This document shows positions 7,248-24,797 of a stretch of 59,004 bases of DNA, one piece after another. The notes beneath the pieces are model-generated. The model was given only the letters and a program-made list of their open reading frames with translations. It was not told the origin of the DNA and did not search any database. The stretch is from the NCBI GenBank assembly GCA_014874265.1, contig JACWAM010000118.1, forward strand, positions 1 to 59,004. Reading direction: 5' to 3'. The position numbers were made by a program, and so were the translations under genes. Numbering within the stretch: the stretch's first letter is position 1; each line of letters starts with the position of its first letter. The stretch comes from Thermoleophilia bacterium (GTDB taxonomy: Bacteria; Actinomycetota; Thermoleophilia; BMS3ABIN01).

Positions 7248-7352
7248 TTTTTCCCTAGAACTCTGGCCGGTCAGTCTGTGGAGGCCGGCTGCTTTATGAA
7301 TTATTGTACCGCAACCGGAACAATTAGTCGCCATTTTTTTGGAATCTAAGCA

Positions 7353-7360
7353 TTCAGAAA
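7353..7360. repeat. Target site duplication, left copy
   Basis: TTCAGAAA here and at 7503-7510 are identical 8-bp direct repeats immediately flanking the miniature element at 7361-7502. They are the expected scar of its insertion. Confidence 0.8.
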
Positions 7361-7502: not shown

Positions 7503-7510
7503 TTCAGAAA
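7503..7510. repeat. Target site duplication, right copy
   Basis: TTCAGAAA, identical to 7353-7360, on the other side of MITE copy 1. Confidence 0.8.
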
Positions 7511-7590
7511 ATTTATCAGGCAACCCTGGTAGACGAACGGATTAAACTGTTTCCCATTGCCGCAGGCGGATTTGCTAAAAAAGTGTTTTT

Positions 7591-9384: not shown

Positions 9385-9558
9385 TTACTTTAACCTTTGG
9401 CTTCTAAAAATCCGGACGCGATTTAATATATCACCCGGTGTGGACGGACAATCTGTCTGTAGCAGGGATCTCTACAACACAAAAAGGCCTCAGGCACAAC
9501 TCTATAAGCGCCTTGGGGCCCCCTTATTTGATGATATCAGTTCGCAGGTCGCCCGTCG

Positions 9559-9582
9559 TCGAACTTCAGTTCGATCTTTTTC
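9559..9582 (+). terminator. Possible terminator/attenuator upstream of fxsA
   Basis: TCGAACT and AGTTCGA form a tight inverted repeat, followed by TCTTTTT on the plus strand. It lies about 95 bases before the fxsA start. It could stop transcription entering from the left or act as an attenuator. The stem is short (5-7 bp), so support is moderate. Confidence 0.4.
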
Positions 9583-9611
9583 CGTAAAAAGGTAGTATTT
9601 TTTTCCCGGCG

Positions 9612-9660
9612 CCAGCTGAAAGCTTCCGGGCTTGCCGATCTTGTTTTTGCCTTCAGCTGG
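9612..9660. repeat. 9-bp inverted repeat with 31-base loop before fxsA
   Basis: CCAGCTGAA at 9612-9620 and TTCAGCTGG at 9652-9660 are perfectly complementary. The right arm ends 15 bases before the fxsA GTG, so folding would cover the region where the ribosome binds. No known leader motif was recognised. Confidence 0.45.
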
Positions 9661-9675
9661 GTAGATATTATTATT

Positions 9676-10137
9676 GTGTTTGCCAGGCTGCTGATACTCT
9701 TCATAATCGTCCCTCTGCTTGAGCTGCTGGTGATCATCCAGATCGGTTCAAGGATCGGGTATTTTTATACAATTCTGCTGCTGGTGCTCATCAGCTTTTC
9801 CGGAGCGGCGCTCGCCAAGCGCGAGGGTTACCACGCGGTGTCCCAGATACAGTCCGAAGTCGCCGCGGGCCGCATGCCCACCGATTCACTCATCGACGGA
9901 GGCCTAATTTTAACGGCGGCGGCGCTTCTGATTACCCCGGGATATCTAACCGACGCCGCCGGCCTGGCACTCCTGACTCCTCCCGTCCGCCGGCTGGTGC
10001 AGATTTATGTTCGCCGGCGCCTAAAAAAAGCCGTTGCCGACCGGACCGTTCATTATTGGACAAGCGGCCCACCGCCTGACGCGAGCGGAGGAGCACCCCG
10101 CGAGCCGGAGCAACGGCGCAAAGAGATAGATCGCTAG
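9676..10137 (+). CDS. fxsA: FxsA family membrane protein
   Basis: A 153-residue inner-membrane protein with the FxsA pattern: three hydrophobic segments (LLILFIIVPLLELLVII, FYTILLLVLISFSGAALA and a GGLILTAAALLITPGYLTD block with the conserved TPGYLTD). The C-terminus is hydrophilic and basic. FxsA in E. coli lessens exclusion of phage T7 by the F plasmid; its normal role is unknown. The start is GTG 9676. The next gene begins 4 bases after its stop, so they form an operon. Confidence 0.85.
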   Translation: MFARLLILFIIVPLLELLVIIQIGSRIGYFYTILLLVLISFSGAALAKREGYHAVSQIQSEVAAGRMPTDSLIDGGLILTAAALLITPGYLTDAAGLALLTPPVRRLVQIYVRRRLKKAVADRTVHYWTSGPPPDASGGAPREPEQRRKEIDR

Positions 10138-10141
10138 GTCA

Positions 10142-11629
10142 ATGAACCGCTTCCTGCTATACGTCATAGTCTTTACCGGTGGTATGACGACGATGGCCGT
10201 GGAGATGTCGGCGTCGCGGCTGCTTGGCCCTTACTTCGGGAATTCACTCTTTATCTGGGCGAATCTCATCGGCCTGATCCTGATTTATCTGACCGCCGGC
10301 TACTACCTGGGAGGCCGGGTCGCGGACCGGTGGCCGCAGCCGCGCCTGCTTTTTACCCTCACACTCTTTGCTTCGGTTGCTATTGCGATTGTGCCGTTTA
10401 TTGCGAAACCGATCATGAGCGTGGCCATCCGCGGCATTGATCAAGTAAACGCCGGCGCTTTTCTCGGCTCGTTTGGCGTCACGGTGCTTCTTTTTGTCGT
10501 CCCCGTCACTGTCCTGGGCATGGTGGCGCCATTCGCCATCCGGCTAAATATCACCAGCATTGAGACATCGGGAAACGTCTCCGGCAGTCTTTACGCCCTC
10601 TCGACGGTGGGAAGTATAATTGGCACATTCTTACCCGTTTTTCTGTTCATCCCCTGGATCGGCACCAGGGATACGATGCTGCTGTTTGCGGGGGCGCTGG
10701 CTGTGATCTCAGCAGCCGGCCTCAGACGTGGTTACCATGTGGCAGCGCCGATCCTGATATTTGCCGCCTTGCTGATACCCACGGGGGAGATTAAACCGAC
10801 GCCGGGAGCAATTTATGAGGGAGAATCGCCCTATCAATACGTTCAGGTGATCCAGAAAGACGGCACCCGCTACCTGCAGCTGAATGAAGGCTGGGCGGTT
10901 CACTCGGAGTATAACCCGAGCCAGCCGCTGACGGGAGGCTACTGGGATTACTTTCTGGTCGCGCCCTGGTTTGGATCGAGCCGGCCGCCGGGGGAAGTGT
11001 TAAATATCGGCAGCGCCGCCGGCACCATCTGCAAAGAGTTACTCGATGTATACCCCGCAGCCCATGTAGACGCTGTGGAACTCGATCCCGACGTCGTTGC
11101 GGTAGGGCGCAAATATTTTGGCATGAATGAAAAAAACCTGACAGTCTATATTGGCGACGGCCGGCCGTATATCAAGACCTGCCGGAAGAGTTATGACATG
11201 ATTGCCATTGACGCTTTCCGCCAGCCTTACATCCCTTTCTATCTGACGACGAGAGAATTCTTCCAGGAGGTCAATAATCATCTCAATCCTGGCGGCACAG
11301 TGATGATCAATGTGGGCACCGTTCCGGGCGATACGAAGCTGGCCGACGCCATCGCAGCCACCATGCGTGATGTCTATCCGTCTGTCTACTCATTCTCTGC
11401 CGGCGAGTTCAACCAGTTGATCGTGGCGACAAAAAACCCGTCCAGGGCCGGCCAGCTGGCCGCCAGAAAGAACGCCATGCCGGCCCCGGTGGCCTCGCTG
11501 GCGGATGACGCGCTGGCTCATCTATCGGTGGTGCGTCCTGGCGGCACCATACTCACCGACGACAAAGCGCCGGTGGAGTGGCTTACAGATCAGATGATTG
11601 TGCACTACGCTGAAAGCGGCAGCCCCTGA
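10142..11629 (+). CDS. Membrane-anchored spermidine-synthase-like protein
   Basis: 495 residues: an N-terminal domain of about seven transmembrane helices (residues 1-220) fused to a spermidine-synthase-like Rossmann methyltransferase fold (about 230-480). In the latter, LNIGSAAGTICKELL is the nucleotide-binding loop and VDAVELDPDVVAVGRKYF carries the acidic residue that binds the ribose. IAIDAFRQPYIPFYLTTREFF is the usual catalytic-side loop. Such fusions are widespread and often called spermidine synthases, but activity is rarely shown, so polyamine synthesis here is an inference. It is translated right after fxsA. Confidence 0.8.
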   Translation: MNRFLLYVIVFTGGMTTMAVEMSASRLLGPYFGNSLFIWANLIGLILIYLTAGYYLGGRVADRWPQPRLLFTLTLFASVAIAIVPFIAKPIMSVAIRGIDQVNAGAFLGSFGVTVLLFVVPVTVLGMVAPFAIRLNITSIETSGNVSGSLYALSTVGSIIGTFLPVFLFIPWIGTRDTMLLFAGALAVISAAGLRRGYHVAAPILIFAALLIPTGEIKPTPGAIYEGESPYQYVQVIQKDGTRYLQLNEGWAVHSEYNPSQPLTGGYWDYFLVAPWFGSSRPPGEVLNIGSAAGTICKELLDVYPAAHVDAVELDPDVVAVGRKYFGMNEKNLTVYIGDGRPYIKTCRKSYDMIAIDAFRQPYIPFYLTTREFFQEVNNHLNPGGTVMINVGTVPGDTKLADAIAATMRDVYPSVYSFSAGEFNQLIVATKNPSRAGQLAARKNAMPAPVASLADDALAHLSVVRPGGTILTDDKAPVEWLTDQMIVHYAESGSP

Positions 11630-11710
11630 GCCGGCAAGAATTGAGGCCAAGCTGGCCGAATCTGATTGATACCATAAGGAAATCCGTTTTTCTGAGAGCC
11701 GCACCGCTGC

Positions 11711-11716
11711 TATAAT
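11711..11716 (+). promoter_or_regulatory. Extended -10 promoter for the crcB riboswitch transcript
   Basis: TGCTATAAT is a perfect -10 box with the TGn extension. The -35 region is poor, as expected for extended -10 promoters. Transcription would begin near 11723, a few bases before the first riboswitch stem. Confidence 0.65.
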
Positions 11717-11725
11717 TTTCTCAAC

Positions 11726-11797
11726 ATGGTGATGAAGCTCACCCAAATGCGCCGGCGGCGCTGATGGCTTCTACAGATTTTCTGTAGGAGTTTTTTT
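11726..11797 (+). ncRNA. Fluoride riboswitch 1 (crcB motif) with terminator
   Basis: GGTGATGAAGCTCACC opens the motif, followed by CAAAT, a GCGCC/GGCGC stem and TGATGGCTTCTACAG. The pseudoknot pairs GAAGC with GCTTC. The same CTTCTACAGA strand can instead pair with TCTGTAGGAG to make a 10-bp hairpin followed by seven T, which is an intrinsic terminator. Aptamer and terminator are therefore mutually exclusive: fluoride binding should turn expression on. The downstream genes encode the fluoride channel and a DUF190 protein. Confidence 0.95.
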
Positions 11798-11836
11798 ATG
11801 CCCGCATCCAGTTTGATGACTAGACGAAGTAGTTGA
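11798..11836 (+). CDS. 12-residue leader ORF between riboswitch and crcB
   Basis: ATG right after the terminator T-run, encoding MPASSLMTRRSS. Its ribosome site (AGGAG, 11786-11790) is part of the terminator stem. Its stop lies 6 bases before the crcB ATG, which has no good ribosome site of its own. Translational coupling from this leader to crcB is likely but inferred. Confidence 0.45.
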   Translation: MPASSLMTRRSS

Positions 11837-11842
11837 TTTGAT

Positions 11843-12217
11843 ATGGAAAACATTCTGGTAATAGGGACTGGCGGCTTCTTCGGCGCCGTCAGCCGCTACG
11901 CCGTCGCCCTCTGGATCGGCGAGCGCTGGGGGCGCAGCTTCCCACTGGGAACGCTGGTGATCAATGTCAGCGGCAGCTTCCTCATCGGTCTGCTGATGTT
12001 CATTCTCAGCCAGAAGGTGCTGGTCAATCCCCTCTGGCGTTCGCTGCTGGTGATCGGCTTCCTGGGCGCCTACACCACTTTCTCCACCTTCGAGTACGAA
12101 ACAGGTAATCTGTTGACCGATGGCGAACTCCTCTACGCAATGGTAAATGTCGTGGCCAGCGTGCTGGTCGGTTTAATGGCGCTGAAGCTCGGCGAGCTGA
12201 TTGCGAAAATAATATAG
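11843..12217 (+). CDS. crcB: Fluoride ion channel Fluc/CrcB
   Basis: A 124-residue, four-helix membrane protein that exports fluoride as a dual-topology homodimer. The family motifs are present: GGFFGAVSRY near the N-terminus, GTLVINVSGSFLIG with the pore Asn, and GFLGAYTTFSTFEYE with the central Phe/Thr pore residues. The length is typical. Its transcript carries fluoride riboswitch 1. There is no clear ribosome site upstream; the preceding leader ORF may provide coupling. DUF190 follows 7 bases after the stop. Confidence 0.95.
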   Translation: MENILVIGTGGFFGAVSRYAVALWIGERWGRSFPLGTLVINVSGSFLIGLLMFILSQKVLVNPLWRSLLVIGFLGAYTTFSTFEYETGNLLTDGELLYAMVNVVASVLVGLMALKLGELIAKII

Positions 12218-12224
12218 GAGCAAG

Positions 12225-12566
12225 GTGTTCACGGGTCCCGCGAAAAAACTGACAATTTATGTGGATGAAAGGGACAAATTTCATCATAAGCCGGTGTACG
12301 AGGCTGTGGTCGATATCCTTTACCAGAACCACATCATGGGACTGAGCGTCTTTAGAGGGATCGGCGGCTATGGCTCCAATGGCGTCCTGCACACTGCCAA
12401 GATCCTCGAACTTTCAACCGATCTGCCGGTAAAAGTGGAGGCAATCGATGCCGCGGACAAGATCTACGAAGTGCTGCCGGAGATCGCCGAGGTCGTCGAA
12501 AAGGGTCTCATTGAAGTTTCTGACACAAATGTAATCAAGTGCTGCCGTTCGAAAGAGGATACCTGA
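12225..12566 (+). CDS. DUF190 family protein, PII-like fold
   Basis: 113 residues of the DUF190 family, seen from KLTIYVDERDKFHHKPVYEAVV and the conserved GLSVFRGIGGYG. These proteins have a ferredoxin-like fold related to PII signalling proteins and are very often encoded with crcB, but their role in fluoride resistance is not settled. The GTG start at 12225 has AGGAG four bases upstream. It is co-transcribed with crcB under riboswitch 1. Confidence 0.9.
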   Translation: MFTGPAKKLTIYVDERDKFHHKPVYEAVVDILYQNHIMGLSVFRGIGGYGSNGVLHTAKILELSTDLPVKVEAIDAADKIYEVLPEIAEVVEKGLIEVSDTNVIKCCRSKEDT

Positions 12567-12649
12567 CCGGGAGATAGAATCAAATTACAGCTGATCCCGG
12601 GCAGGGCTGTTTTGCCGGCCTGTTTTCAGGGAAAAAACCAATAAAAAGC

Positions 12650-12728
12650 GGCGATGAAGCTCGCCCTTAAGCGTCCTCACGGGGACTAATGGCTTCTACA
12701 GACCGGCAGATCTGTGGGAGCTATTTTT
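12650..12728 (+). ncRNA. Fluoride riboswitch 2 with terminator, before dynamin-like gene
   Basis: GGCGATGAAGCTCGCC, a GTCC/GGAC stem and TAATGGCTTCTACAG match the crcB motif. The pseudoknot GAAGC/GCTTC is conserved. CTTCTACAGA can pair with TCTGTGGGAG (10 bp with G-T pairs), followed by CTATTTTT: a terminator that competes with the aptamer. The stem also covers the GGGAG ribosome site of the next gene. I see no convincing promoter of its own between DUF190 and this element, so it may sit inside the crcB transcript. Confidence 0.93.
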
Positions 12729-14492
12729 ATGGAAAAACTGGATACATACTCATCGACCAGACAGCGCCTTGAAGAGATTCTGGCCCACCTGGCGGGAAGC
12801 GTCAGGGAAGAATCTTCCCGTCAGGCACTGGCGGATGTCAGCAGCCAACTGGCTGACAACCGCTTTTCGCTGGTCGTGGCCGGGCAGTTCAAGCGGGGCA
12901 AGACTACCTTTATCAACGCACTTCTGGGCAGCAACCTGCTGCCGGTCGCCATCATTCCGGTGACCTCGATCATCACCGTCGTTGGTTATGGCGAAGAGCT
13001 GAAGATCGAGCTGTTTCTTAAAGACGGCTACCACCAGGACATTGACCGGGATCAGCTGCCGCAGTACATCACGGAAAAACAGAACCCGGACAACATGAAG
13101 CAGGTCGACCGGGTCGAGATCCTCTATCCGTCACCATATCTCAAAAATCATGTTCAGCTGATCGACACCCCCGGCGTCGCTTCCATCCACAGCCACAATA
13201 CGGAGACAACATACGGTTTCCTGCCCAAGGCCGACGCCGCGGTCTTCATGGTCAGCGTCGACCCGCCCCTGACCGAGGCCGAGCTCCACTTCCTCGCGGA
13301 CCTGAAGGAGTACGCCGCCCGCATCTTCTTTGTCCAGAACAAGATCGATACCGTGGATGAAAAGGACCGGGCCGAGTCGCTGGCCTTCACCCGCAGCGTC
13401 ATTGGGGAACGGCTGGGATTTGACAATGCCACGATCTATCCGCTTTCGGCAAAAAACGCTCTGGAGGGCAAGCTGTCGGGCGATCCGGAGATGGTTACCG
13501 GCAGCGGCCTGCCCGTGTTCGAGGAAATGCTGGACCGGTTCCTGATGAATGAAAAGGGCAGTGTAATCCTGGCTTCTGCCGCCGGCAAAACGCAGAACAT
13601 CATCGCTCAGGAGACCTTTTCATCACGCCTGATGCAACAATCGCTTCAGGAACCGCTAAGTAACCTGGAAGAAAAGATCGCCCTCTTCCAGGAGTCCCTC
13701 AAGGAAATCAGCCTGGAACGATCCGACAGCAAGCTTTTAGTCAGGCAGGAGGCCAACCGCCTGGTCAATGAAATTCTTCTGCCGGATCTGGAAGCGTTGA
13801 AGGAGCGGGAAACGCGGCAGCTTCAGACAGAGCTTGACATTATGGCAGAAACAGCAGGCGATCTGGGCAATCGCGATTTTGCCGAGGCGCTTGATGAACT
13901 GCTCAGGGAACGGGTCCATGACATCTTCAACCACTGGCGCCTCCACGAACAGGAGCAGCTTAACGGCAGCCTGGCCCGGATGCTCAGGCGGCTGGTGGAG
14001 CGGACCAACCGCATCATCGAGCGTCTGGCGGCGGTCTCTTCAGAGCTTTTCGGCACTGAGATGAGCGGCTTCACCGTCGACGAGTCCCTGGCGGGGGAAT
14101 CTTCTTTCAGCTTCAAGCTTGATGAGGATGTGAAGATCGCCCTGGAAAGCATGACGGAAGCAGCAGCGCTGATGCTGCCGAAGCGGCTGGCCCACCGCCG
14201 CATCCTGGGCGAGGCGCGGGAGCGCGCCGCCAAGCAGATCGACCGTCACTGCGGCCGGATGCGCCATGACCTCACCGGCAGGATTGAGGTGACGGTGGCG
14301 GATTTTAGCCGGCGGCTGGACGGCGCTGTCGACGCCGCCATCCGCGGCATCGACGAGGCGCTTATGGCAGGCCAAGAGGCACGCACGAAAAGCGCGGCCG
14401 AGCTGGAAAGCTTTGAAATCGAACTGGCCCGGCGGCTGAGCGCTCTGGAGGAGGCGTCGGCGGAAATCAGGCAGCTGGTGCGGGAACTTTAA
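12729..14492 (+). CDS. Bacterial dynamin-like GTPase under a fluoride riboswitch
   Basis: 587 residues. The N-terminal GTPase domain has G1 GQFKRGKTTF, G2 PVTSIITV, G3 DTPGVAS and G4 VQNKID. The rest is long amphipathic helices (neck and trunk) without clear membrane-spanning segments, as in bacterial dynamin-like proteins that bind and remodel membranes. Its target is unknown. ATG 12729 follows GGGAG at a good distance; the GTG at 12714 would lie in the terminator stem. It is the first gene after riboswitch 2, and the hydrogenase-related operon follows 54 bases later. A role in protecting or remodelling membrane during fluoride stress is inferred. Confidence 0.88.
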   Translation: MEKLDTYSSTRQRLEEILAHLAGSVREESSRQALADVSSQLADNRFSLVVAGQFKRGKTTFINALLGSNLLPVAIIPVTSIITVVGYGEELKIELFLKDGYHQDIDRDQLPQYITEKQNPDNMKQVDRVEILYPSPYLKNHVQLIDTPGVASIHSHNTETTYGFLPKADAAVFMVSVDPPLTEAELHFLADLKEYAARIFFVQNKIDTVDEKDRAESLAFTRSVIGERLGFDNATIYPLSAKNALEGKLSGDPEMVTGSGLPVFEEMLDRFLMNEKGSVILASAAGKTQNIIAQETFSSRLMQQSLQEPLSNLEEKIALFQESLKEISLERSDSKLLVRQEANRLVNEILLPDLEALKERETRQLQTELDIMAETAGDLGNRDFAEALDELLRERVHDIFNHWRLHEQEQLNGSLARMLRRLVERTNRIIERLAAVSSELFGTEMSGFTVDESLAGESSFSFKLDEDVKIALESMTEAAALMLPKRLAHRRILGEARERAAKQIDRHCGRMRHDLTGRIEVTVADFSRRLDGAVDAAIRGIDEALMAGQEARTKSAAELESFEIELARRLSALEEASAEIRQLVREL

Positions 14493-14500
14493 CGGCATCC

Positions 14501-14523
14501 CCATGCGGCTTTGACCCGCATGG
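14501..14523 (+). repeat. Hairpin between dynamin-like gene and Ehr operon
   Basis: CCATGCGG (14501-14508) and CCGCATGG (14516-14523) form a perfect 8-bp stem with a 7-base loop. There is no T-run after it, so it is not a normal terminator. It might be an RNA processing or stability element that separates the two parts of one transcript. Confidence 0.55.
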
Positions 14524-14546
14524 CGGCAACGCCGGACAGGAGCCTT

Positions 14547-15497
14547 GTGGCAGACAGAATCGCATTTAACATGATACAGGTACTGGTTGTCATGGCGTTC
14601 GCGCCGCTGGCCTCCGGCGTGCTCTCCCGCCTCAAGGAATTGGTTCAGTCCAAACGCGGTCCGAGCATTTTTCAGCCCTATCGCGATCTGTGGAAACTAT
14701 TTCACAAGGATGAGATTGTTTCCGAAGACAGTTCCTGGATCTTCCTGTTTACGCCTTACATGATTTTTATCACACCCATTTTCGTGACGCTGCTGATCCC
14801 GGTGCTGACTAATTATCCGCTCTTCTTTGCTTTCATGGGCGACATGATCGGCGGCGGGTTCGTACTGGCACTGGGCGGATTCTTCGCCACCCTGGCAGCG
14901 ATTGACACAGCCAATCCCTACGGCCCCATGGGCGCCAGCCGCACGCGGATGGTGGGCTTCCTGGCCGAGCCGGTGTTCATGATCGTTTTCTTCACCGTCT
15001 CATTTGTCGCCGGCTCCACCATTCCCTATATCGTCCAGGAAAAATGGGTGACCCCGGTGGCGAATTTCTTCATGCCGTCGCACGTGCTGCTGATGCTGGC
15101 ATTCCTGATGCTGATCCTGGCCGAAGGCGGCCGCATCCCGGTGGATAATCCCACCGGCCATTTTGAGTTGGCGATGATTGACGAATCTAAATCGCTCGAA
15201 TACTCAGGCCGGGGGTTCGCGCTGGTGAAGTGGGGCGGCTTCATGAAAATGTTCGTGCTGATGTCCATCTTCCTCAACGTCCTCGTGACACCCTGGGGGC
15301 TGGCTGCTGAAGTGTCGGCCGGCGACATTCTGTTGTCCATTCCGCAAGTGCTGCTGAAGATCTTCATCTTTTTGTTACTTCTGGTTGTCATCGAGTCTTC
15401 GCTCTCCAAGCTGCGGCTGTTTCGCATCAGCGAATTTCTGGGAGCCGCGTTCATTATCTGCGTAGCGGCGATGATCGCGCAGGTTTTTACATATTGA
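14547..15497 (+). CDS. Ehr complex membrane subunit, HyfC/NuoH-like
   Basis: 316 residues, about eight transmembrane helices, homologous to HyfC/HycD and complex I NuoH, the subunit joining the membrane arm to the peripheral arm. Family features include LVQSKRGPSIFQPYRDLWKLF in the first loop, and AEGGRIPVDNPTGHFELAMID and ESKSLEYSGRGFAL, with the charged residues of the coupling region. GTG 14547 is four bases after AGGAG; the frame is open from a TTG at 14511 without family-like sequence. It is the first gene of the complex. Confidence 0.9.
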   Translation: MADRIAFNMIQVLVVMAFAPLASGVLSRLKELVQSKRGPSIFQPYRDLWKLFHKDEIVSEDSSWIFLFTPYMIFITPIFVTLLIPVLTNYPLFFAFMGDMIGGGFVLALGGFFATLAAIDTANPYGPMGASRTRMVGFLAEPVFMIVFFTVSFVAGSTIPYIVQEKWVTPVANFFMPSHVLLMLAFLMLILAEGGRIPVDNPTGHFELAMIDESKSLEYSGRGFALVKWGGFMKMFVLMSIFLNVLVTPWGLAAEVSAGDILLSIPQVLLKIFIFLLLLVVIESSLSKLRLFRISEFLGAAFIICVAAMIAQVFTY

Positions 15498-15515: not shown

Positions 15516-16220
15516 ATGAACTCGACCAATCAGCTACTGGATAACCTCAATGCCCTGGCAGCAGCGTTGTTTCTGCTGACTGCTTTTGGCATGGTGGCGA
15601 TGCGCCAGGCGCGGGGCGTTCTCAACCTGTTCATCGCTCAGTCCCTGCTGCTGTCCGCCTCCGCTCTGTTTTTGGGTCTGCGTTTCCACTCGGACCATCT
15701 TTACGGCGTTGCTCTGGTGGATATCATCATCAAGCCGGTAATCATTCCCTGGCTGCTGAGGCGGACAGCGCCGGCAGAGATCTATACGCGCCGGGAGGTC
15801 AACCAGGCGCTGAATATCCCCACCGCCTTGCTGGCCGCGCTGGCGCTGGCAATCCTCGCCTACTTTCTGGCACAGCCCATTCTTGGCGCAGTGGCGCCTC
15901 AGTTCCGCAACCCCAACGTTCCGATCGGCATCGCTGGTTTGCTGCTGGGGGCATTCACGATCACGGTCCGGCGAGAAGCCGTGCCGCTGCTGGTTGGCCT
16001 CCTGGCCATGGAAAACGGCGCCTTCCTGGCGGGCATCGCCATCGCCCGCGACCTGCCGCTGATCGTCGAACTGGCCGTGGCCTCGGATGGTCTTATTGTC
16101 GTCTTCATCATGGGGGTACTCACCCGTGCCGTCTATCGGCAGATTGGTTCGACGGCGGTCGGCGAGCTGGCGAGCCTGAAAGAGGCTCCGGAAACGGCGG
16201 GAGAGGAGAGGACCGCATGA
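15516..16220 (+). CDS. Ehr complex membrane subunit, HyfE-like
   Basis: A 234-residue very hydrophobic protein resembling HyfE and, in its first half, NuoK (VDIIIKPVIIPWLLRR). About seven membrane helices are apparent. HyfE-type subunits belong to the membrane arm of group 4 hydrogenase-like complexes. Its end overlaps the next start by ATGA, so they are translationally coupled. Confidence 0.85.
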   Translation: MNSTNQLLDNLNALAAALFLLTAFGMVAMRQARGVLNLFIAQSLLLSASALFLGLRFHSDHLYGVALVDIIIKPVIIPWLLRRTAPAEIYTRREVNQALNIPTALLAALALAILAYFLAQPILGAVAPQFRNPNVPIGIAGLLLGAFTITVRREAVPLLVGLLAMENGAFLAGIAIARDLPLIVELAVASDGLIVVFIMGVLTRAVYRQIGSTAVGELASLKEAPETAGEERTA

Positions 16221-17710
16221 GCGTCGTCCTCCTTCTGCTGCTCCCCGTGATTGCCGCGGCCCTGGTGTTGCTTCCCTTCAGGAAATTATGGGCGCCAGCC
16301 GTAACCATTGCTTCCTCGCTGGTGATCCTGGTCCTGGCAGCGCGGATCGCCTGGCAGGCTTCACAAGGGGAATCCGTGACCTCGGTTCTGGGAACCGGCT
16401 TTTTCAAATGGATTAATGTAGACAGCCTCAGCGCTCTGATCCTGCTGCTCATCGCCTTTGTCAGCACCACGGCGGCCATTTACTCCGCCGGTTATATGGC
16501 GCATGGAGATTACTCATCCTGGAGGCTGCGCATCTACTATGTCAACTTCAACGCGTTCGTCTTCTCCATGCTTGCCATTCCCGTTCTTTCCGAACCGACG
16601 CTGGTCTGGATCGCCGTCGCCCTGACAACCCTGACGTCGGCGCTGATCGTCTCTTTTGAAAACACACGCGACGCGCTGGAAGCGGCATGGAAGTACGTGG
16701 TGCTGTCACTCATGGGAGCCGGCATGGCGCTATTCGGTTTCCTGCTGCTGTTCGCCGCCTTTGAGGCCTCCGGCAGCACGGCGGCGTTTACCTGGAATGA
16801 TCTGGGCAACGCCGCGCCCGGGATGCCGCCGGTCCTGCTCATGACCGCTTTCCTTTTCATCCTCATTGGCCTTGGCACTAAAACCGGTCTGGTGCCGATG
16901 CACGCGTGGCTGCCGGATGCTCACAGCCAGGCGCCCTCGCCGGTCTGCGCCCTGCTTTCCGGGATCGAGACGTCGGTCATCCTTTACGTGATCATGCGCC
17001 TGTTTCCAATCATGCGGGCGGTGCCGGGGTCCCATGCCGCGACATGGGCAATCGTGCTGGGCCTGATATCTGTGGGTACCGCCGCGTTCCTGCTCTTGCA
17101 GGTAAACGATTACAAGCGCATGTTTGCCTTTTCCACGGTGGAGCACATGGGCATCATCCTGACGGCGATCGGGCTGGGCGCCAGTAACGCCAATTACGGG
17201 GCGCTTGAGCAGGTCGTCAGCCACAGCGTCACCAAGTCATTTTGCTTTTTTGCCGCCGGCGCCGTTTTGCTGGCGGTGGAAACGCGGCAGATCGCCTCGG
17301 TGCGCGGGCTCATCCGCCGCTCGCCCGCGGCCGGGGCGGCCCTCGTTTTTGGCGGCCTGGCCATAGCCGGAGCGCCGCCCCTGGCCGTCTTCCTCAGCGA
17401 ATTCTCCATCATGAAGGCCGGCCTGGCAGAGGGCAGCTACGCAGTCATCGGCCTGCTTTCGTTTTTTATCCTGATCGCGTTTTTTGGCGTCATGATGCAG
17501 ATCAACCGGATGGTCTTCAGCGCCGGGAATACTGAATCAGCGGGCGTGGCTTCGGGAGTTTCTTCCCGCCCTGGCAAGAAATTTCATCTGCCCTTTAGCT
17601 GCCGGCTGGCGCTTGCCATTTCCGGCGCACCTGTCATTTTACTTGGCTTTTATATTCCCCCGCCCATGCAGGACCTGCTGGCTCACGCGACCGCTATTTT
17701 GACAAAATGA
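16217..17710 (+). CDS. Ehr complex antiporter-like subunit, HyfF/NuoM-like
   Basis: 497 residues with about 13-14 transmembrane helices of the Mrp/NuoL-M-N antiporter type. The typical LPDAHSQAPSPVCALLSG segment carries proton-channel residues and FAFSTVEHMGIIL the conserved helix after it; LGTKTGLVPMHAWLPDAH has the channel Lys. It is likely to move H+ or Na+ when the peripheral arm is oxidised or reduced. It overlaps its neighbours by 4 bases on both sides. Confidence 0.9.
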   Translation: MSVVLLLLLPVIAAALVLLPFRKLWAPAVTIASSLVILVLAARIAWQASQGESVTSVLGTGFFKWINVDSLSALILLLIAFVSTTAAIYSAGYMAHGDYSSWRLRIYYVNFNAFVFSMLAIPVLSEPTLVWIAVALTTLTSALIVSFENTRDALEAAWKYVVLSLMGAGMALFGFLLLFAAFEASGSTAAFTWNDLGNAAPGMPPVLLMTAFLFILIGLGTKTGLVPMHAWLPDAHSQAPSPVCALLSGIETSVILYVIMRLFPIMRAVPGSHAATWAIVLGLISVGTAAFLLLQVNDYKRMFAFSTVEHMGIILTAIGLGASNANYGALEQVVSHSVTKSFCFFAAGAVLLAVETRQIASVRGLIRRSPAAGAALVFGGLAIAGAPPLAVFLSEFSIMKAGLAEGSYAVIGLLSFFILIAFFGVMMQINRMVFSAGNTESAGVASGVSSRPGKKFHLPFSCRLALAISGAPVILLGFYIPPPMQDLLAHATAILTK

Positions 17711-19278
17711 TCAATTTAACCGATCAGATTGAAGAACGCTGGGGAGGCAAGGCCCAGGCGGGTTTTAACGTTATCAATTCCGCCTGGGAAGTAACCTGCT
17801 CTCAAACGGCGCTGGTGGAGATATGCGAATGGATTTTTGCTGATCTCGATTTTAGTTTTGCCACTCTGGTTGTCGAGGAAGAAGCGGATGAGTGGCGCCT
17901 GCGTTACATCTTTTATGGGGGGAGTAACGGTTGGGTCCACGTGCTGGCCAGCTCGCCTCGTTCAGAACAGACCTTTCCCAGTATCGTCGGTCCCGTGCAC
18001 GCCGCCGACTGGCATGAGCGTGAAGCCGAGGACATGTTCGGCCTCAACTTTGAGGGCCATCCTCGCCTGGGAGATTTTATCCTCCACGATGACGCCTGGC
18101 AGGAGGGCGTCGAGCCGATGCGCCATCAGTTTGACCCGCAGATGGCACTGCTTTACCGCAAGCCGGTTGAGGACTGGCGGCCACGGCGCATCGTCCAGGA
18201 GCCCGGCGCCTTTATCATGCCCGTCGGACCAAAATATTCCGGAGTCGCCGAGTCGGCTCAGTTCCTGCTCGAGACCGTCGGCGAAGACGTCATTCGGTTC
18301 TCGCCGCGGCTGTATTACAAGTGGCGCGCGGTAGAGAAGCTTGCTGAGGGAAAGACAGCAGATGAAGTCCTGCTGCTTGCCGAGCGCTTTGCGGCCACGA
18401 CGGCGTTTGCCCATGGCCTCGCCTTCTGCCAGGCAGTCGAGAAAATCTGCGGCGCAAAGGTCCCGCAACGGGCCAGGGCGCTGCGCGTGTTTTTGGCGGA
18501 GCTGGAGCGGCTGCGGCAGCACACCGGCCAGGTTCAGGCGATCTGCGAATCGACGGCGCTGGTGGTCGCGGACAGCCAGAGCGGCATCCTGGAGGAAGAC
18601 CTGCTCCGCATCAGTGGCGAGCTGGCCGGCCACCGTTACCTCTTCGGCCTGCTGGCGCCGGGCGGTCTGACTACCGACCTTTCGGATCAGGCATGTCAGC
18701 ATGCGCTTGAGCGTTCGCGAGAGGCGCTGGCCGGCCTGGATGAGCTGGAAACGCAGCTGCGCGTCTCCAGCAGCTTTCTTGACCGCCTGGAAGAGGTTGG
18801 TTTCGTGCCGACCGGCACCGCCCTGGATTATGGCCTTCTAGGGCCGGTGGCGCGCGCGGCCGCGGTCACCGACGACCTGCGCCGCAAGCAGCCCTACCTG
18901 GGATATGACCTGTTTCAGTTCGAGGTGCCCAGCGAGCGGGAGGGCGACGGTTACGCGCGGCTGCGGGTGCTGTTCTCAGAATGCCGGCAATCCGTGCTTA
19001 TCATGGGACAGGCGCTGGCAGCGCTCGCGGAGGGCAGGGTGCGCGAACCGGTCCGGTTTCATGCAGGCGCCGCGCTGGGTTATGTAGAGGCGCCGCGCGG
19101 CGGCGCTTTCCACTGGGTGCGACTGGACGAAGGGGGAAGGGTGCTTCGCTACCATATCACTTCGCCTTCTTTTGTCAACTGGCACGGTTTTCACCTCGCC
19201 GTGGAAAATTTTGCGTTTCAGGACTTTCCCATCATGCTCGCTTCTTTCTACCTTTCCGTCGCGGAGAATGACAGGTGA
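17707..19278 (+). CDS. Ehr large subunit: NuoC-NuoD/HycE-like without Ni ligands
   Basis: 523 residues. A NuoC-like domain (about 1-160, with HEREAEDMFGLNFEGHP) is fused to a NuoD / [NiFe] large-subunit domain. In hydrogenases the first Ni motif is CGxC before SxxH. Here the aligned stretch is ERFAATTAFAHGLAFCQAVE, so both cysteines are Ala and Thr. The last motif, DPCxxC, aligns to ASFYLSVAENDR, so those cysteines are Ser and Glu. All four Ni ligands are missing while the flanking residues are well kept. It therefore cannot bind a NiFe centre and belongs to the energy-converting-hydrogenase-related (Ehr) group; its redox partner is unknown. Confidence 0.9.
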   Translation: MINLTDQIEERWGGKAQAGFNVINSAWEVTCSQTALVEICEWIFADLDFSFATLVVEEEADEWRLRYIFYGGSNGWVHVLASSPRSEQTFPSIVGPVHAADWHEREAEDMFGLNFEGHPRLGDFILHDDAWQEGVEPMRHQFDPQMALLYRKPVEDWRPRRIVQEPGAFIMPVGPKYSGVAESAQFLLETVGEDVIRFSPRLYYKWRAVEKLAEGKTADEVLLLAERFAATTAFAHGLAFCQAVEKICGAKVPQRARALRVFLAELERLRQHTGQVQAICESTALVVADSQSGILEEDLLRISGELAGHRYLFGLLAPGGLTTDLSDQACQHALERSREALAGLDELETQLRVSSSFLDRLEEVGFVPTGTALDYGLLGPVARAAAVTDDLRRKQPYLGYDLFQFEVPSEREGDGYARLRVLFSECRQSVLIMGQALAALAEGRVREPVRFHAGAALGYVEAPRGGAFHWVRLDEGGRVLRYHITSPSFVNWHGFHLAVENFAFQDFPIMLASFYLSVAENDR

Positions 19279-19282
19279 CCGC

Positions 19283-20044
19283 ATGAGCCGCTGGGTTATA
19301 AAAGGGATTCGCACAGGAATAAAAACCACCACATACCCGCGCGGCACTGAGAGTGCACCCGGCACGACCCCTGGCCTCCCCGGCAGCGGCGCGCCTGATA
19401 GCGAGGCAGCACAAGCACTAGTGGAAATTTGCCCCACGGGTGTATTCACGGTCGCCGGCGGCGAACTGGTGGCGGACGTGCGCGGCTGTATTCATTGCCT
19501 GCGATGCGTCCGCCTGACCCATCAGCCGGCGAACTGGCAAGCCGGTTCTTTTGAGTGGGCAGCGGAAACAGTGCCGGTAAATAAACTTCCGGGCGCATTT
19601 AAAAAATCCGTACATATCTGCGTCGTTGACACCGGCGACTGCGGCGCCTGCTTAAACGAAGTAAGGCAGCTCAACAATCCCTACTACAACATGCATCGCC
19701 TGGGACTCTTCATCACGCCCACGCCGCGCCACGCCGACATCCTGCTGATAGTGGGCCCGGGCACCGACCACATGCGGTACGCCCTCCAGAAAATCTACGC
19801 CGCCATGCCCTCCCCAAAGCGCGTGGTGGCTGCCGGCGCCTGCGCGCTTTCAGGCGGAGTTTTTGCCGGGAGCTTTACCTGCAGTGAGGGTATTGGTGAA
19901 ACAATGCCGGTGGACGTGGAAATTCCCGGATGTCCGCCGCCGCCTCTGGCAATTTTGCACGGCTTGCTGGTGGCGGCCGGGCGCAGACCGCCAGCCGGCA
20001 GCCCCGCTACCACGGCAAAGACGGAAACGCCCGGAACGGCATGA
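19283..20044 (+). CDS. Ehr small subunit: ferredoxin domain fused to NuoB-like domain
   Basis: 253 residues from ATG 19283; the frame is open from 19172 but only inside the previous gene. The N-terminal part carries ALVEICPTG and GCIHCLRC, which give four cysteines for one [4Fe-4S] cluster, as in HyfH/HycF. The C-terminal part is NuoB/HycG-like with DTGDCGACLNEV, AAGACALSGG and IPGCPPPP, the full set for the proximal (N2-like) cluster. So the electron path is kept even though the large subunit lost nickel. It overlaps the next gene by ATGA. Confidence 0.88.
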   Translation: MSRWVIKGIRTGIKTTTYPRGTESAPGTTPGLPGSGAPDSEAAQALVEICPTGVFTVAGGELVADVRGCIHCLRCVRLTHQPANWQAGSFEWAAETVPVNKLPGAFKKSVHICVVDTGDCGACLNEVRQLNNPYYNMHRLGLFITPTPRHADILLIVGPGTDHMRYALQKIYAAMPSPKRVVAAGACALSGGVFAGSFTCSEGIGETMPVDVEIPGCPPPPLAILHGLLVAAGRRPPAGSPATTAKTETPGTA

Positions 20045-22236
20045 TGGACGCCTTGATGCTCATCATCATTTTTCTGGGGCTTTGCGGCGCCGGCGTCTTG
20101 CTGTCCCTCCTGGCGCCGCCGGCGAGGCAGGGAAGTGTGCTAGCCTGGACGGGGTGCCCGGCGGCCCTGGCGCTGGTCCTGGCGGGAGGGGCAGCGCTGC
20201 TGGCGGGAGATACCTTTAGTCAGGCGCTCTGGTCGCTGCCGGGATTGTCAACCCTGACTCTCAGCCTCGATCCGGTGTCGGCGCCGTTTCTGGTCGTGAC
20301 CGGCCTGGTGCTGTTCCCGGCTTCAATCTTTGCCGCCAGCGAGCTAAACCGCGAACCGGGACGGGGCGGCTCTGCCAAACGTTTGCTTCCTTTCTCGTTT
20401 TCTTATCACAAGCGCGCCTTCACCGTGATGCTGCTGGGGCTGTACGCCGCCATTGGCCTGATCTTCGTGGCCGGAGACGTTCTCTTGTTTATGCTCGCCT
20501 GGGAAGTCATGTCAATTCTGGCGTATCTGCTGATCGTATCCTTAAGCAGCGGGGAAAAAGACGGGGCGGGCGCCGGCTATCTTTTGCTGGCCATGGGTGA
20601 AGCGGGGACCCTGGCCGCAGTTGTTGGTTTTCTGCTCATGGCCGCCGGCGCCGGGTCGCTTGATTTCGGCGCGATCCATGCCGCGGCTCCAGGTTTTAGC
20701 AACGGACTGAAGTGGTCGGTCTTTCTGCTCTCGTTTTTTGGTTTTGGCGTAAAAGCAGGTTTGCTGCCGGTTAATTTCTGGTTGCCCAGAGCTTATGTTG
20801 CCGCATCCCGCGCTTTTGTCCCGGTGCTGGCCGGGGCCACTCTCAACCTGGGCCTGTACGGGATTATGCGGGTAAACGCCGGCCTGATGCCGGCGACCAG
20901 CGCCGGGCCGGGCCTGATCGCGCTCGTCATCGGCGCGCTCACAGCCCTGATTGGCATCCTTTATGCGACCATAGACAAGGATCTCAAGCTCGTGCTGGCG
21001 CATAGCTCAATTGAAAATGCCGGCATTGTTATCGCTGGTTTTGGCGCGGGGATGGTGTTTGTGGCCACCTCACACCCGGTGCCGGCCGCGATTGCTTTTA
21101 TGGCGTCAATCTACCATCTGATCAATCATTCGCTTTACAAGACGCTTTTGTTTTTCGGGGCCGGCGTGGTGGAGACCGGGACCGGCATCCGCAATATCAA
21201 CAAGCTTGGCGGCCTCATCAAGTGGATGCCATGGACGGCGGCCGCCTTCCTTGCCGGGGCCCTGGCGATCTCGGCCCTGCCGCCACTTAACGGCTTTGTC
21301 AGCGAGTGGCTCACGCTGCAGACTTTGCTGCGCGCCGCCGATTTGTCCTCGGCTGCAGAAAAGCTGTCTTTCGCGCTGGCCGGGGCCGGCCTGGCGCTGA
21401 CGGCGGCGCTGGCCGTTACCTGCTTTGTCAGAACCTTCGCCATGAGCTTCCTGGGCATGCGGCGTACAAGAGAAAATCAGCCTGTCCAGGAGGCTAAAAT
21501 GGGCGCGCTGGCGCCAATGTTTATTCTCGCCGTTCTCTGCCTCGGCCTGGGCGTTTTGCCCACGTATGTGATTTCCGCGCTCAGTCCGGCAACGACCCAG
21601 CTGGCCGGCGCCAGCGCCGCTGATGCCCTGGTGCCGCCCTTCTTCTCATCCAATCCGGAGCATAGTCAGCTGCCGGCCGGTTTTGTTCAGGACTTTCATA
21701 ATCTGGGAGCCCAAGTGGGGCAAAGCCTCTTGCCCGGCCGCGGCCTGGTGGTGCTTCACCGCGGTGGTGAGGACAACCCGGTGGTTTTTGCCATGTCAAC
21801 ATCTTACATGGCAGTTGTTTTAATCATCCTGCTGGGCGCGACTTTCGTTGTTACCCGGGTCTGGTTAACTCGCAGGCGGAGGCTGCTTAGGCGAAAGCGC
21901 TGGGATGGGGGGATGCGCCGGCTGCTGCCGGAGATGACCTACACGGCGACCGGCTTCTCCAACCCGGTGCGAGTGATTTTCGACGCCGTCTTCAGGCCCA
22001 CAACCGTGGAGGACACCCGCGAGACGGTTAGCAGGCATTTCCGCACCGCCATACTGCGCGAGCGTGATCGAACCTATCTCGCTGATAAGCTTGTTTTTCG
22101 CCCGGCAAGAGCGGCGCTGTTAAAAGTCGCGCGCGCACTGGCATATCTACACCAGGGCAAGCTCAACGCTTACGCGGCTTACGCGCTTTTTGCGCTCCTG
22201 GCCGTGCTCGTCGTCTATTTAATCCAGACATCATGA
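20041..22236 (+). CDS. Ehr complex large antiporter-like subunit, HyfB/HycC-like
   Basis: 731 residues with about 15-16 transmembrane helices. It has the NuoL/M antiporter core (FFGFGVKAGLLPVNFWLPRA, then LVLAHSSIENAGIVIAG and INHSLYKTLLFFGAGVV) and a long C-terminal part with a last helix (ALFALLAVLVVYLIQT), as in HycC/HyfB. With the HyfF-like protein this makes two ion-pumping modules in the complex. The start at 20041 overlaps the previous stop; the next start codon would be 20044. Confidence 0.9.
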   Translation: MMDALMLIIIFLGLCGAGVLLSLLAPPARQGSVLAWTGCPAALALVLAGGAALLAGDTFSQALWSLPGLSTLTLSLDPVSAPFLVVTGLVLFPASIFAASELNREPGRGGSAKRLLPFSFSYHKRAFTVMLLGLYAAIGLIFVAGDVLLFMLAWEVMSILAYLLIVSLSSGEKDGAGAGYLLLAMGEAGTLAAVVGFLLMAAGAGSLDFGAIHAAAPGFSNGLKWSVFLLSFFGFGVKAGLLPVNFWLPRAYVAASRAFVPVLAGATLNLGLYGIMRVNAGLMPATSAGPGLIALVIGALTALIGILYATIDKDLKLVLAHSSIENAGIVIAGFGAGMVFVATSHPVPAAIAFMASIYHLINHSLYKTLLFFGAGVVETGTGIRNINKLGGLIKWMPWTAAAFLAGALAISALPPLNGFVSEWLTLQTLLRAADLSSAAEKLSFALAGAGLALTAALAVTCFVRTFAMSFLGMRRTRENQPVQEAKMGALAPMFILAVLCLGLGVLPTYVISALSPATTQLAGASAADALVPPFFSSNPEHSQLPAGFVQDFHNLGAQVGQSLLPGRGLVVLHRGGEDNPVVFAMSTSYMAVVLIILLGATFVVTRVWLTRRRRLLRRKRWDGGMRRLLPEMTYTATGFSNPVRVIFDAVFRPTTVEDTRETVSRHFRTAILRERDRTYLADKLVFRPARAALLKVARALAYLHQGKLNAYAAYALFALLAVLVVYLIQTS

Positions 22237-22717: not shown

Positions 22718-23416
22718 ATGCGCACTCTGGTTTTATCCGACATCCACGCCAATATTGACGCCCTTGAAGCCATTGATGAACCCTGCGACGCGGTCCTGTT
22801 TCTGGGGGACGTGGTTGACTACGGCCCCGAACCGGCCGCCTGCATCAACTGGCTGCGGGAGCGCGGCGCCAAACGCGTGCGCGGCAACCACGATAACGCC
22901 GTGGCCTTCCGGATGGACTGCGGCTGCGGTGAAGCTTACAGGCATCTTTCGGTGCAAACGCGAGAGTACATGTGGCAAGTGCTGGATCAGGAAAGGCTCG
23001 ACTGGCTGGGGGCGGCGCCCATCAGCCTGGAGCTGGAAAGCGGCGGACACCGCGTCCTTGCCGTCCACGCCGCGCCCAGCGATAACCTGTTCAGGTATGT
23101 AACTCCGGAGGCCAGCGACGCCGATCTGGCCGCCGAAGCAGCGCTGACGGATGCGGACATCATCCTCATGGGCCATACCCACCGTCCTTTTATCCGCGAA
23201 GCCGGCGGCAAACTGCTGGTCAATGTCGGCAGCGTTGGCCAGCCCCGGGACGGCATTCCCATGGCTAGTTACGCCGTCATCGAGGGCGGCCAGGTGGAGC
23301 TAAACCAGGCGCAGTACGATGTCGAAGCTGCCGTGGCCCGGCTCAGGCGCCTGCCCCTTGAGGAGAGGGCGATCAACGAACTCGCCTATATCCTTAGGAA
23401 CGCCGGCATGCCCTGA
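22718..23416 (+). CDS. Metallophosphoesterase, YfcE/MJ0936-like
   Basis: 232 residues with the dinuclear metal phosphoesterase motifs in order: SDIHAN, GDVVDYG, GNHDNA, and MGHTHRP near residue 150. The substrate is unknown; relatives act on cyclic or small phosphodiesters. AAGGAG is 5 bases before the ATG. It is the first gene after MITE copy 2 and has no obvious operon partner. Confidence 0.9.
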   Translation: MRTLVLSDIHANIDALEAIDEPCDAVLFLGDVVDYGPEPAACINWLRERGAKRVRGNHDNAVAFRMDCGCGEAYRHLSVQTREYMWQVLDQERLDWLGAAPISLELESGGHRVLAVHAAPSDNLFRYVTPEASDADLAAEAALTDADIILMGHTHRPFIREAGGKLLVNVGSVGQPRDGIPMASYAVIEGGQVELNQAQYDVEAAVARLRRLPLEERAINELAYILRNAGMP

Positions 23417-23552
23417 AGCGCATATTGGATTTAGGATATTAATATTGATGGAAAAAGACGCCCGAATAATTAAAATCTGCCAACCCTTGCAGATTGAAAA
23501 TTGGTAAATCCCCTTGTAGCAATAAGTGCCGTGCCCGTGTTTTAATCCATGG

Positions 23553-24797
23553 ATGGCCGAGAATAAGGAAACGGGGCTACCTGATGAGGCCCTCCCCGAT
23601 GCGGTAGCAGCGATGGTGGGCGAGAAGTCTCCCGTTCCCGGCATCAGCCGCAATGTCTTCATCCTGGGCATCACCAGCTTCTTTACCGATCTTTCGACCG
23701 AGGTTGTCTATCCACTGGTGCCACTGTTTCTGACCTCCGTTCTGGGGGCGCCTTTTTTTGTGGTTGGCTTGATCGAGGGCATCGCCGAAAGCACGGCCAG
23801 CCTGCTTAAGATCTTTTCCGGCTGGATATCTGACCGCATGCGCCGGCGGCTGCCGCTGACGGTGATCGGGTACAGCGTTTCCGGATTTGCCAAGCCTCTC
23901 CTCGCGCTAGCCACCGTATGGCCGGTTGTGCTTGTGCTCCGCTTTGGCGACCGCTTGGGAAAGGGGATCCGCAACCCGCCGCGCGACGCCCTCATCGCCG
24001 ATTCTTCCGAACCATTGAGGCGCGGCCGCGTCTTCGGCTTTCACCGGGCGATGGATACAGCCGGCGCCTCTTTAGGCGCGATCGCCGCACTGGCGGCGCT
24101 GGCGATCCTGGGCGAGCGGTACCGGATCATCTTCCTTCTTTCCGCGGTACCGGCGGTGCTGGGTGTGGTCAGCCTCTTTTTCATCCGTGAGCGCGTCCAC
24201 CCGCACCGGCAGACGCTGCCGCCCCGGCTCTCACTATCACAACTCGACCATCGCTTCAAAATATTCCTGCTGGCCAGCGCTATTTTTGCCCTGGGAAACT
24301 CCAGCGACGCTTTCCTGATTTTACGAGCAAAAAACCTGGGGCTCTCGGCGCTTGGAGCGGTGATGGCTTACGTGATTTACAACCTTGTTTACGGTTCCCT
24401 GTCGATGCCGGCGGGTTCGCTCTCCGACCGGATCGGCCGCCGGCTAGTGATCGCTGGCGGATTTGTCATCTTTTCATTGGTTTACGCCGGTTTTGCCCTG
24501 GCGGCGGGAGCCCTTTTTGTCTGGCCGCTGTTTGCTGTTTACGGCATCTACATGGCAATGACTGAGGGAGTCGGCAAGGCATTTGCCGCCGATATGGCGC
24601 CGGCCGGCGTCCGCGGCACCGCTTTGGGAGCTTATCAGACCGTGACCGGAGCCCTGACTTTTTTCTCCAGCCTGATCGCCGGGATCCTTTGGGATACGAT
24701 CGGGCCGTTTGCTCCCTTCCTTTTCGGGGCCGCCGCCGCGATCGTGGCGGCAGGCGTGCTCGTAAACGCTACACGGGTCCGCCCGTCAGCCTCCTGA
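23553..24797 (+). CDS. MFS transporter
   Basis: About 414 residues with 12 predicted membrane helices and the MFS loop motif GWISDRMRRRLPL between helices 2 and 3, repeated as GSLSDRIGRRLV in the second half. LGKGIRNPPRDALIADS is a signature of one MFS subgroup of unknown substrate. ATG 23553 starts a soluble N-terminus of about 40 residues; the longer frame from 23526 is less likely. It stands alone. Confidence 0.88.
   Translation: MAENKETGLPDEALPDAVAAMVGEKSPVPGISRNVFILGITSFFTDLSTEVVYPLVPLFLTSVLGAPFFVVGLIEGIAESTASLLKIFSGWISDRMRRRLPLTVIGYSVSGFAKPLLALATVWPVVLVLRFGDRLGKGIRNPPRDALIADSSEPLRRGRVFGFHRAMDTAGASLGAIAALAALAILGERYRIIFLLSAVPAVLGVVSLFFIRERVHPHRQTLPPRLSLSQLDHRFKIFLLASAIFALGNSSDAFLILRAKNLGLSALGAVMAYVIYNLVYGSLSMPAGSLSDRIGRRLVIAGGFVIFSLVYAGFALAAGALFVWPLFAVYGIYMAMTEGVGKAFAADMAPAGVRGTALGAYQTVTGALTFFSSLIAGILWDTIGPFAPFLFGAAAAIVAAGVLVNATRVRPSAS

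Follow-up and report, generated by a model that had tools for sequence, protein, structure and literature searches.

The closest described relatives of the system analysed here are the Ehr complexes, which, according to the available parts of the papers describing them, combine large and small subunits of the group 4 hydrogenase type with NuoH-, HyfE- and antiporter-like membrane subunits and lack nickel ligands (PMC6349859, PMC10284858, PMC4378227, PMC10432482). Redox-coupled ion translocation is presumed for them in the accessible text. The same papers and three others (PMC7304191, PMC7894505, PMC3569383), as far as their available text goes, note that the ligands are absent; some make no commitment on function, others propose a formate dehydrogenase as the partner. 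We analysed such a complex in a stretch of 59,004 nucleotides from a Thermoleophilia bacterium (JACWAM010000118.1, positions 1 to 59,004 of the forward strand; "the window"), which belongs to contig C109 of a draft genome (2.0 Mb, 97% complete). Its genes form a six-gene run in the order H-E-F-L-S-B behind a dynamin-like gene; the fourth of them, L, encodes a large subunit that has lost the nickel ligands, and the operon is linked to a fluoride riboswitch in the window as well as in related loci.

A second body of literature concerns the genes associated with the fluoride riboswitch (crcB motif). "Formate hydrogen lyase" is listed among them (Weinberg 2010, PMC2864571; 2024 review, PMC11139923), and the review, in its available sections, takes this association as anaerobic formate metabolism. 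The word "fluoride" was not found in the main text of the seven Ehr papers cited above, and a link between Ehr and fluoride was not found in the literature searched, in which the combination of fluoride riboswitch and hydrogenase matched only work on E. coli and on per- and polyfluoroalkyl substances.

Loss of the nickel and quinone ligands in the large subunit

The open reading frame (ORF) of L spans exactly positions 17707-19278 of the forward strand and encodes 523 amino acids. Its product is a HycE-like large subunit of the fused NuoC-NuoD/HycE type, as seen in phmmer searches against the PDB, in alignments and in the predicted fold. HycE (7z0s_E) was matched with an E-value of 4.5e-50 over query residues 67-514, and Nqo4 (2fug_4) with an E-value of 4.7e-37. 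The AlphaFold model has a mean pLDDT of 78 and a pTM of 0.83, and its best fold match is again HycE 7z0s_E (Z 39.9 over 480 residues), with Z values of about 36-37 for complex I Nqo4/NuoD. Around the old active site the model is unreliable, with pLDDT values <50 at residues 157-201, 500-507 and 516-523.

In the alignment, VCGIC of HycE corresponds to F228-A-A-T-T232 of L, and DPCYSC of the E. coli protein (locus L085) corresponds to Y515-L-S-V-A-E520, i.e. the four nickel-ligand positions are occupied by A229, T232, S517 and E520. An earlier note on this DNA had described this fourfold replacement and had assigned the complex to the Ehr type rather than to the hydrogenases. Both statements hold, the latter on the grounds of homology to HycE, the missing NiFe cysteines, and the clustering with NuoH-like and Mrp/antiporter-like subunits.

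The two sites were compared in 37 clade rows, comprising the window, two loci of the same genus and 34 of the 35 related loci, the short stretch of L067 being omitted. A CxxC pair is present at either site in none of the 37 rows. The alignment check for displaced cysteine pairs that the earlier note had proposed likewise found none near either site, and none shifted into residues 210-250 or into the C-terminus from residue 490. The replacing residues are nearly invariant: Ser517 is found in 33 of the 34 and Glu520 in all 34 readable rows, and Thr or Ser occupies position 232 in 34 of the 35 rows that reach this site. Y515 is peculiar to the window, nearly all relatives having D or G. The absence of CxxC from all rows, together with this conservation, indicates that the ligands were replaced long ago and that selection acts on the replacement. 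A sequencing error or displaced cysteines are ruled out by the open frame and by the 37 rows without a CxxC pair. A pseudogene is also ruled out: none of the six subunit genes in the window is disrupted, and the operon has been kept in different phyla.

The positions of Nqo4 His38 and Tyr87, which we take to be the quinone residues, were checked by alignment and correspond to A181 and A230 in L. The histidine of the GPxH motif is present in all hydrogenase (7/7), other-Ehr (5/5) and complex I (19/19) rows, and its position is occupied by Y or F in all 35 clade rows. Glu182 is present in all seven hydrogenase rows and in all 35 clade rows. The old NiFe/quinone cavity contains the conserved non-metal residues Ser517, Glu520, Thr/Ser232 and Tyr/Phe177. 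Judged by these alignments, the hydrogen and quinone chemistry of the complex is gone.

The earlier note had also pointed to missing hyp maturation genes. HypD is indeed not encoded on the contig, but the argument is weak, because HypD is present elsewhere in the genome (C55:39153-40178, L089). The ORFs next to it were read by eye as a hyp set, cytochrome b and maturation proteases, i.e. as a separate hydrogenase cluster. Within the genus, HypD tracks the ehr operon (three of three carriers, none of three non-carriers), which we read as chance, given six genomes and the location of HypD in a separate cluster.

Linkage of the operon to fluoride riboswitches

Two fluoride riboswitches (RF01734) are present in the window, and an RNA search found no further ones in the 2.0 Mb genome. 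The first precedes crcB (11719-11780, forward strand; cmscan 39.8 bits, cut-off 34), and a terminator-like hairpin with a U-run overlaps its aptamer (11766-11792, forward strand; −14.2 kcal/mol, z −5.5). The second aptamer heads the dynamin-ehr operon (12641-12705, forward strand) and covers the full model (1-64) with 43.0 bits at the same cut-off. The adjoining hairpin (12690-12723, forward strand; −18.9 kcal/mol, z −4.7) is the likely expression platform of an ON switch: the 3′ end of the aptamer forms its 5′ arm, a U-rich run follows, and it covers the likely ribosome site. By their predicted structure, both leaders have the layout of fluoride ON switches, with an aptamer running into a hairpin and a U-rich run; the ON direction is deduced from the RNA family and the overlapping hairpin, and the identity of the ligand from the Rfam family. 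Fluoride would thus be expected to induce the dynamin-ehr operon. The earlier note, while correct about the ligands, had overlooked both riboswitches and the crcB/DUF190/dynamin neighbourhood, i.e. the physiological context.

We determined how often the riboswitch accompanies the operon in other loci. Fetching by protein alone yielded 28 loci with an H gene, including the window, and 27 of them have enough upstream DNA; L066, whose sequence breaks off 23 bp ahead of H, and eight loci without H (L040, L046, L051, L052, L060, L061, L064, and L067) were omitted from the count. All 27 testable loci have a fluoride riboswitch upstream of H on the same strand. The scores are at or above the Rfam gathering score in 26 of them, the remaining one being L054 with 33.8 bits versus 34 (E 2.5e-7). 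At 21 of the 27 loci the riboswitch lies at most 350 bp from H with no intervening gene, and at two (L058, L068) it is 0.7-1.0 kb away. It heads a run of other genes in L035 (crcB/DUF190), L038 (DUF190), L059 (metallophosphoesterase and enolase) and the window (dynamin). Both loci of the same genus (L069, L070) have the riboswitch, and so do all three more distant members that share this gene order (L081 Burkholderia, L087 Caballeronia, L088 Mycobacterium).

None of 15 control loci, representing other Ehr types and true group 4 hydrogenases including formate hydrogenlyase, has a fluoride riboswitch. They comprise ten Ehr or group 4 hydrogenase loci from the same class and five plasmid loci including the E. 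coli formate hydrogenlyase; in L072, L073 and L078, which are short or cut stretches, the upstream regions are covered in part.

A second sample consisted of 296 genomes of the phylum, drawn by taxonomy and searched with the protein at an E-value of 1e-60. Ten large-subunit genes were found in nine genomes, and the RNA search had matches in 66 genomes. Seven of the genes are in H-E-F-L-S-B order, and in each case a riboswitch lies on the same strand 3.3-5.0 kb upstream of L; none of the three in another gene order (G092, G136, G004:C24) has one. A rough density estimate gives about 4e-4 riboswitches expected by chance per gene within 6 kb. Two of the seven H-E-F-L-S-B genomes (G000, G004) are common to both samples.

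A tree of 69 large subunits, calculated with a quick method and including some long branches (L101-L104 were left out), places 32 close relatives together (SH-aLRT 100). They are joined by the second copy of L048 and by the sequences from Burkholderia, Caballeronia and Mycobacterium (SH-aLRT 97), and this clade is separate from the hydrogenases, the other Ehr and complex I. The labels of the member metagenome-assembled genomes include Acidobacteriota, Pseudomonadota, Planctomycetota, Spirochaetota, Nitrospirota, Verrucomicrobiota, Bacillota and others.

Two loci deserve separate mention. L048 has two different Ehr clusters in tandem (1-6700 and 6663-14500), the second of them behind a fluoride riboswitch. 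L041, from a Nitrospira metagenome-assembled genome, has a clade member behind a fluoride riboswitch. For comammox Nitrospira, a hyf-like operon is described in the available text as hydrogenase-4 of unclear role (PMC5596200).

Conservation of ion-pathway and iron-sulfur residues

The charged residues of the membrane subunits are strongly conserved among the relatives. The fractions are 32/33 for E156, 33/33 for K239 and 32/32 each for K368 and E423 of the B subunit, 36/36 each for K222, K340 and E395 of F, 31/31 for E166 and E185 of E, and 30/30 for E153, E219, E225 and E230 of H. The antiporter-like subunits are intact, in agreement with the earlier note, and the ion machinery is, to judge from these fractions, under strict selection.

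The iron-sulfur ligands show a different picture. The small subunit S has the cysteines C57, C76, C79 and C82 in its half-ferredoxin and C127, C130, C194 and C224 at the proximal cluster. That the proximal cysteines are kept, as the earlier note had said, is true of all four in the window, but the fourth, C224, is a cysteine in only ten of the 35 clade rows, being replaced by N, S, A, H, Q, F or G in the others. In L088, a Mycobacterium branderi plasmid, the small subunit (8932-9726) has none of the four proximal cysteines, and the operon and the fluoride riboswitch are kept. The further claim that the complex "still can move electrons" is therefore not established; electron transfer is plausible, but seems to be dispensable at one ligand at least. 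In another Ehr type from the same bacterial family (L071, L073-L075; motifs ISGDSS and NLSYSGND), which has no fluoride riboswitch, one proximal cysteine is kept in the small subunit.

Genes of the operon and its neighbourhood

All genes described in the following are encoded on the forward strand. Behind the first riboswitch lies crcB (11843-12217), encoding a Fluc-type fluoride channel (PF02537 at C109:11855-12193, 97.9 bits), followed by a gene for a small DUF190 homologue (12225-12566); homologues of the latter are found in L035, L038, L059, L062, L063, L070, L088 and L100, the one of L088 being annotated as DUF190. The first gene of the operon encodes a dynamin-like GTPase (12714-14492; PF00350, E 4e-27), with a start at GTG 12714 or ATG 12729. 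The gap between its stop and H is 18-54 bp and contains no terminator-like site.

H (14511-15497, likely start GTG 14547) encodes a NuoH/HycD-like membrane subunit (PF00146, E 2e-32; 7z0s_D, E 3e-41), E (15516-16220) a HyfE-like membrane subunit (NF008556, E 3.5e-24), and F (16217-17710) a HyfF/MrpD-like antiporter subunit with conserved K222, K300, K340 and E395 (PF00361, E 2e-44). Downstream of L, S (19262-20044) encodes an N-terminal [4Fe-4S] half-ferredoxin fused to a NuoB/HycG-like small subunit (PF01058, E 8e-24; 7z0s_G, E 8e-27), and B (20038-22236) a HyfB/HycC-like antiporter subunit with conserved E156, K239, K368 and E423 (NF005086, E 1e-139; 7z0s_C, E 3e-53). Among solved structures, L, H, B and S are closest to subunits of the E. 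coli formate hydrogenlyase, and F to MbhH. All Pfam matches of the six subunits are to complex I, hydrogenase, antiporter and ferredoxin-like families, with no membership in CrcB or CLC. The fused half-ferredoxin was rejected as a hallmark of the type, as it reads as a separate ORF before S in L102 and L104, and the riboswitch-less L082 also has one.

Several neighbouring genes recur. A metallophosphoesterase (22718-23416; PF12850, E 1e-22) has homologues in L059, L062 and L070. A major facilitator superfamily (MFS) transporter near the operon (23526-24797) has homologues in L041, L065 and L067, and in L065 it lies directly behind a fluoride riboswitch. The dynamin-like GTPase recurs next to fluoride riboswitches and the ehr operon in several phyla (L035, L036, L041, L047, L049, L062, L069, L070, L081, L100) and is possibly a membrane protein of the fluoride stress response. 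Genes located behind additional fluoride riboswitches or elsewhere in the island encode enolase (L036, L047, L059, L068, L088), pyrophosphatase (L081), MutS-like proteins (L036, L044, L068), CrcB, DUF190, dynamin-like and MFS proteins.

A Pfam scan of 30 flanking proteins, among them 11 of the 20 unlabelled flanking ORFs of at least 600 amino acids, identified enolase, MutS-like proteins, helicases, P-type ATPases, a UvrD helicase, a CMAS methyltransferase and others, but no formate dehydrogenase. Molybdopterin oxidoreductases (PF00384) are present in all 11 genomes searched, away from L, and none is near L in the eight carrier genomes searched. A dedicated electron donor adjoining the operon was thus not found among these proteins or PF00384 positions.

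A probable role in fluoride survival

These results make it fairly probable that the H-E-F-L-S-B operon encodes a nickel-free, fluoride-inducible Ehr relative of complex I and formate hydrogenlyase that translocates cations and supports the cytoplasmic pH and the proton motive force. The complex is probably part of bacterial fluoride survival and not of hydrogen production. Binding of fluoride to the aptamer at 12641-12705 would block the overlapping terminator/ribosome-binding-site hairpin and turn on the dynamin-ehr operon, and the adjoining crcB would be turned on by its own fluoride riboswitch. As a weak acid, hydrogen fluoride (HF) that gets into the cell lowers its pH and drains the gradient needed by the exporters. 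By moving cations (H+ or Na+/H+) the complex could expel the protons brought in by HF and restore the gradient spent by Fluc or CLC-F export. It might be driven either by electrons, passing from the ferredoxin-like cluster via the proximal cluster to an acceptor, or by gradient-driven antiport. A multisubunit cation pump or antiporter that is induced together with CrcB would fit the needs caused by HF acidification. According to the available text of the 2024 review, the cytoplasm becomes acidic under fluoride stress, and among fluoride-riboswitch genes only those for exporters are commoner than those for Na+/H+ antiporters (PMC11139923). The fourth proximal cysteine is dispensable, and for this reason we lean slightly towards little or no electron transfer in the complex.

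Several observations weigh against this interpretation. As the close-relative loci were all retrieved with a single query, they are not independent. Ion specificity is not readable from sequence. According to the alignments, F lacks the transmembrane helix (TM) 5 glutamate of MbhH, and in B an Asn takes the place of the TM8 lysine of MbhH and HycC. In addition, the half-ferredoxin cysteines of S are conserved in 35, 35, 33 and 35 of the 35 clade rows, and the proximal-cluster cysteines C127 (35/35), C130 (34/35) and C194 (35/35) are kept as well, which suggests that electrons still matter.

The first alternative is a redox-driven pump that is also induced by fluoride. Here electrons would pass from a cytoplasmic donor via the half-ferredoxin of S and the proximal cluster to a quinone or another acceptor in the altered cavity, and H+ or Na+ would be pumped as in complex I or Mbx. 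Seven of the eight iron-sulfur cysteines are conserved in nearly all 35 clade rows, as are the acids and lysines along the pathway in H, E, F and B and, without exception, Glu182. However, both Nqo4 quinone residues are missing, the fourth proximal cysteine is retained in a minority of the rows, L088 lacks all four, and neither a formate dehydrogenase among the 30 flanking proteins nor a molybdopterin oxidoreductase near L in the eight carrier genomes was found. We regard this redox-driven pump as possible, though somewhat doubtful.

Export of fluoride by the complex (as F− or HF, perhaps together with cations), via a repurposed antiporter-type subunit, is improbable. Three carriers that are 96-99% complete (G140, G160, G169; loci L102-L104) have the riboswitch-ehr operon and no CrcB or CLC-family match, and CLC transporters have been repurposed for fluoride in a similar way, as the available part of one paper states (PMC7266159). 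Yet the same three genomes contain other nearby candidates (MFS-like and MutS-like ORFs, read by eye), and genes may be lacking from draft assemblies. Furthermore, CrcB is encoded next to the operon in the window genome, and the residues of the membrane subunits are like those of cation antiporters.

A fluoride-induced formate hydrogenlyase, with metabolism shifted to anaerobic H2 production, would agree with the gene name given in the two riboswitch publications, as far as their available text goes, and with the solved structures that L, H, B and S match best. However, the nickel-ligand pairs are absent from all 37 clade rows, no formate dehydrogenase adjoins the operon, and the real formate hydrogenlyase locus (L085) has no riboswitch. 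Moreover, members of the clade occur in Mycobacterium and Burkholderia, which are aerobes. By its residues, the H-E-F-L-S-B type cannot be a formate hydrogen lyase enzyme, and we consider this explanation already refuted for the type, barring a demonstration of nickel and H2 activity. An ordinary Ehr of central energy metabolism with a riboswitch serving the dynamin gene only, as its place directly before that gene and 1.9 kb before H in the window might suggest, is already disfavoured and very unlikely, given the riboswitches within 350 bp of H at 21 of the 27 loci and the short dynamin-H gap without a terminator-like site.

Ehr complexes are widespread and, in the available literature, of unknown function; tying one whole clade to fluoride gives it a specific candidate inducer. 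The interpretation of riboswitch-linked "formate hydrogen lyase" as an anaerobic shift is called into question. Furthermore, the clade is a natural test of a complex I scaffold from which both the metal site and the quinone ligands are gone.

Comparison with known systems

The type resembles the published Ehr complexes in its subunits and its lack of nickel ligands. It differs from other Ehr in the gene order H-E-F-L-S-B, in Y, F or R for the GPxH histidine, in the fluoride riboswitch and, in the main clade, in LSxxE; the other Ehr examined have GPVHAG, mostly SGD and NxSYxGND, B before H, and no fluoride riboswitch. The E. coli formate hydrogenlyase/hydrogenase 4 (group 4a) provides the best fold match of L and the best sequence matches of L, H, B and S. 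In contrast to it, the type has no NiFe ligands and no formate dehydrogenase partner, and it has a fluoride riboswitch. With complex I (Nqo4/NuoD) it shares the fold of L and the acids and lysines of the membrane subunits, but L has neither His38 nor Tyr87, and the operon has no NADH module. Lastly, the riboswitch, crcB, enolase, pyrophosphatase and MutS are shared with the described fluoride-riboswitch (crcB motif) regulon. The difference from the regulon in print is that each riboswitch-linked "formate hydrogenlyase-like" operon examined here is a nickel-free Ehr.

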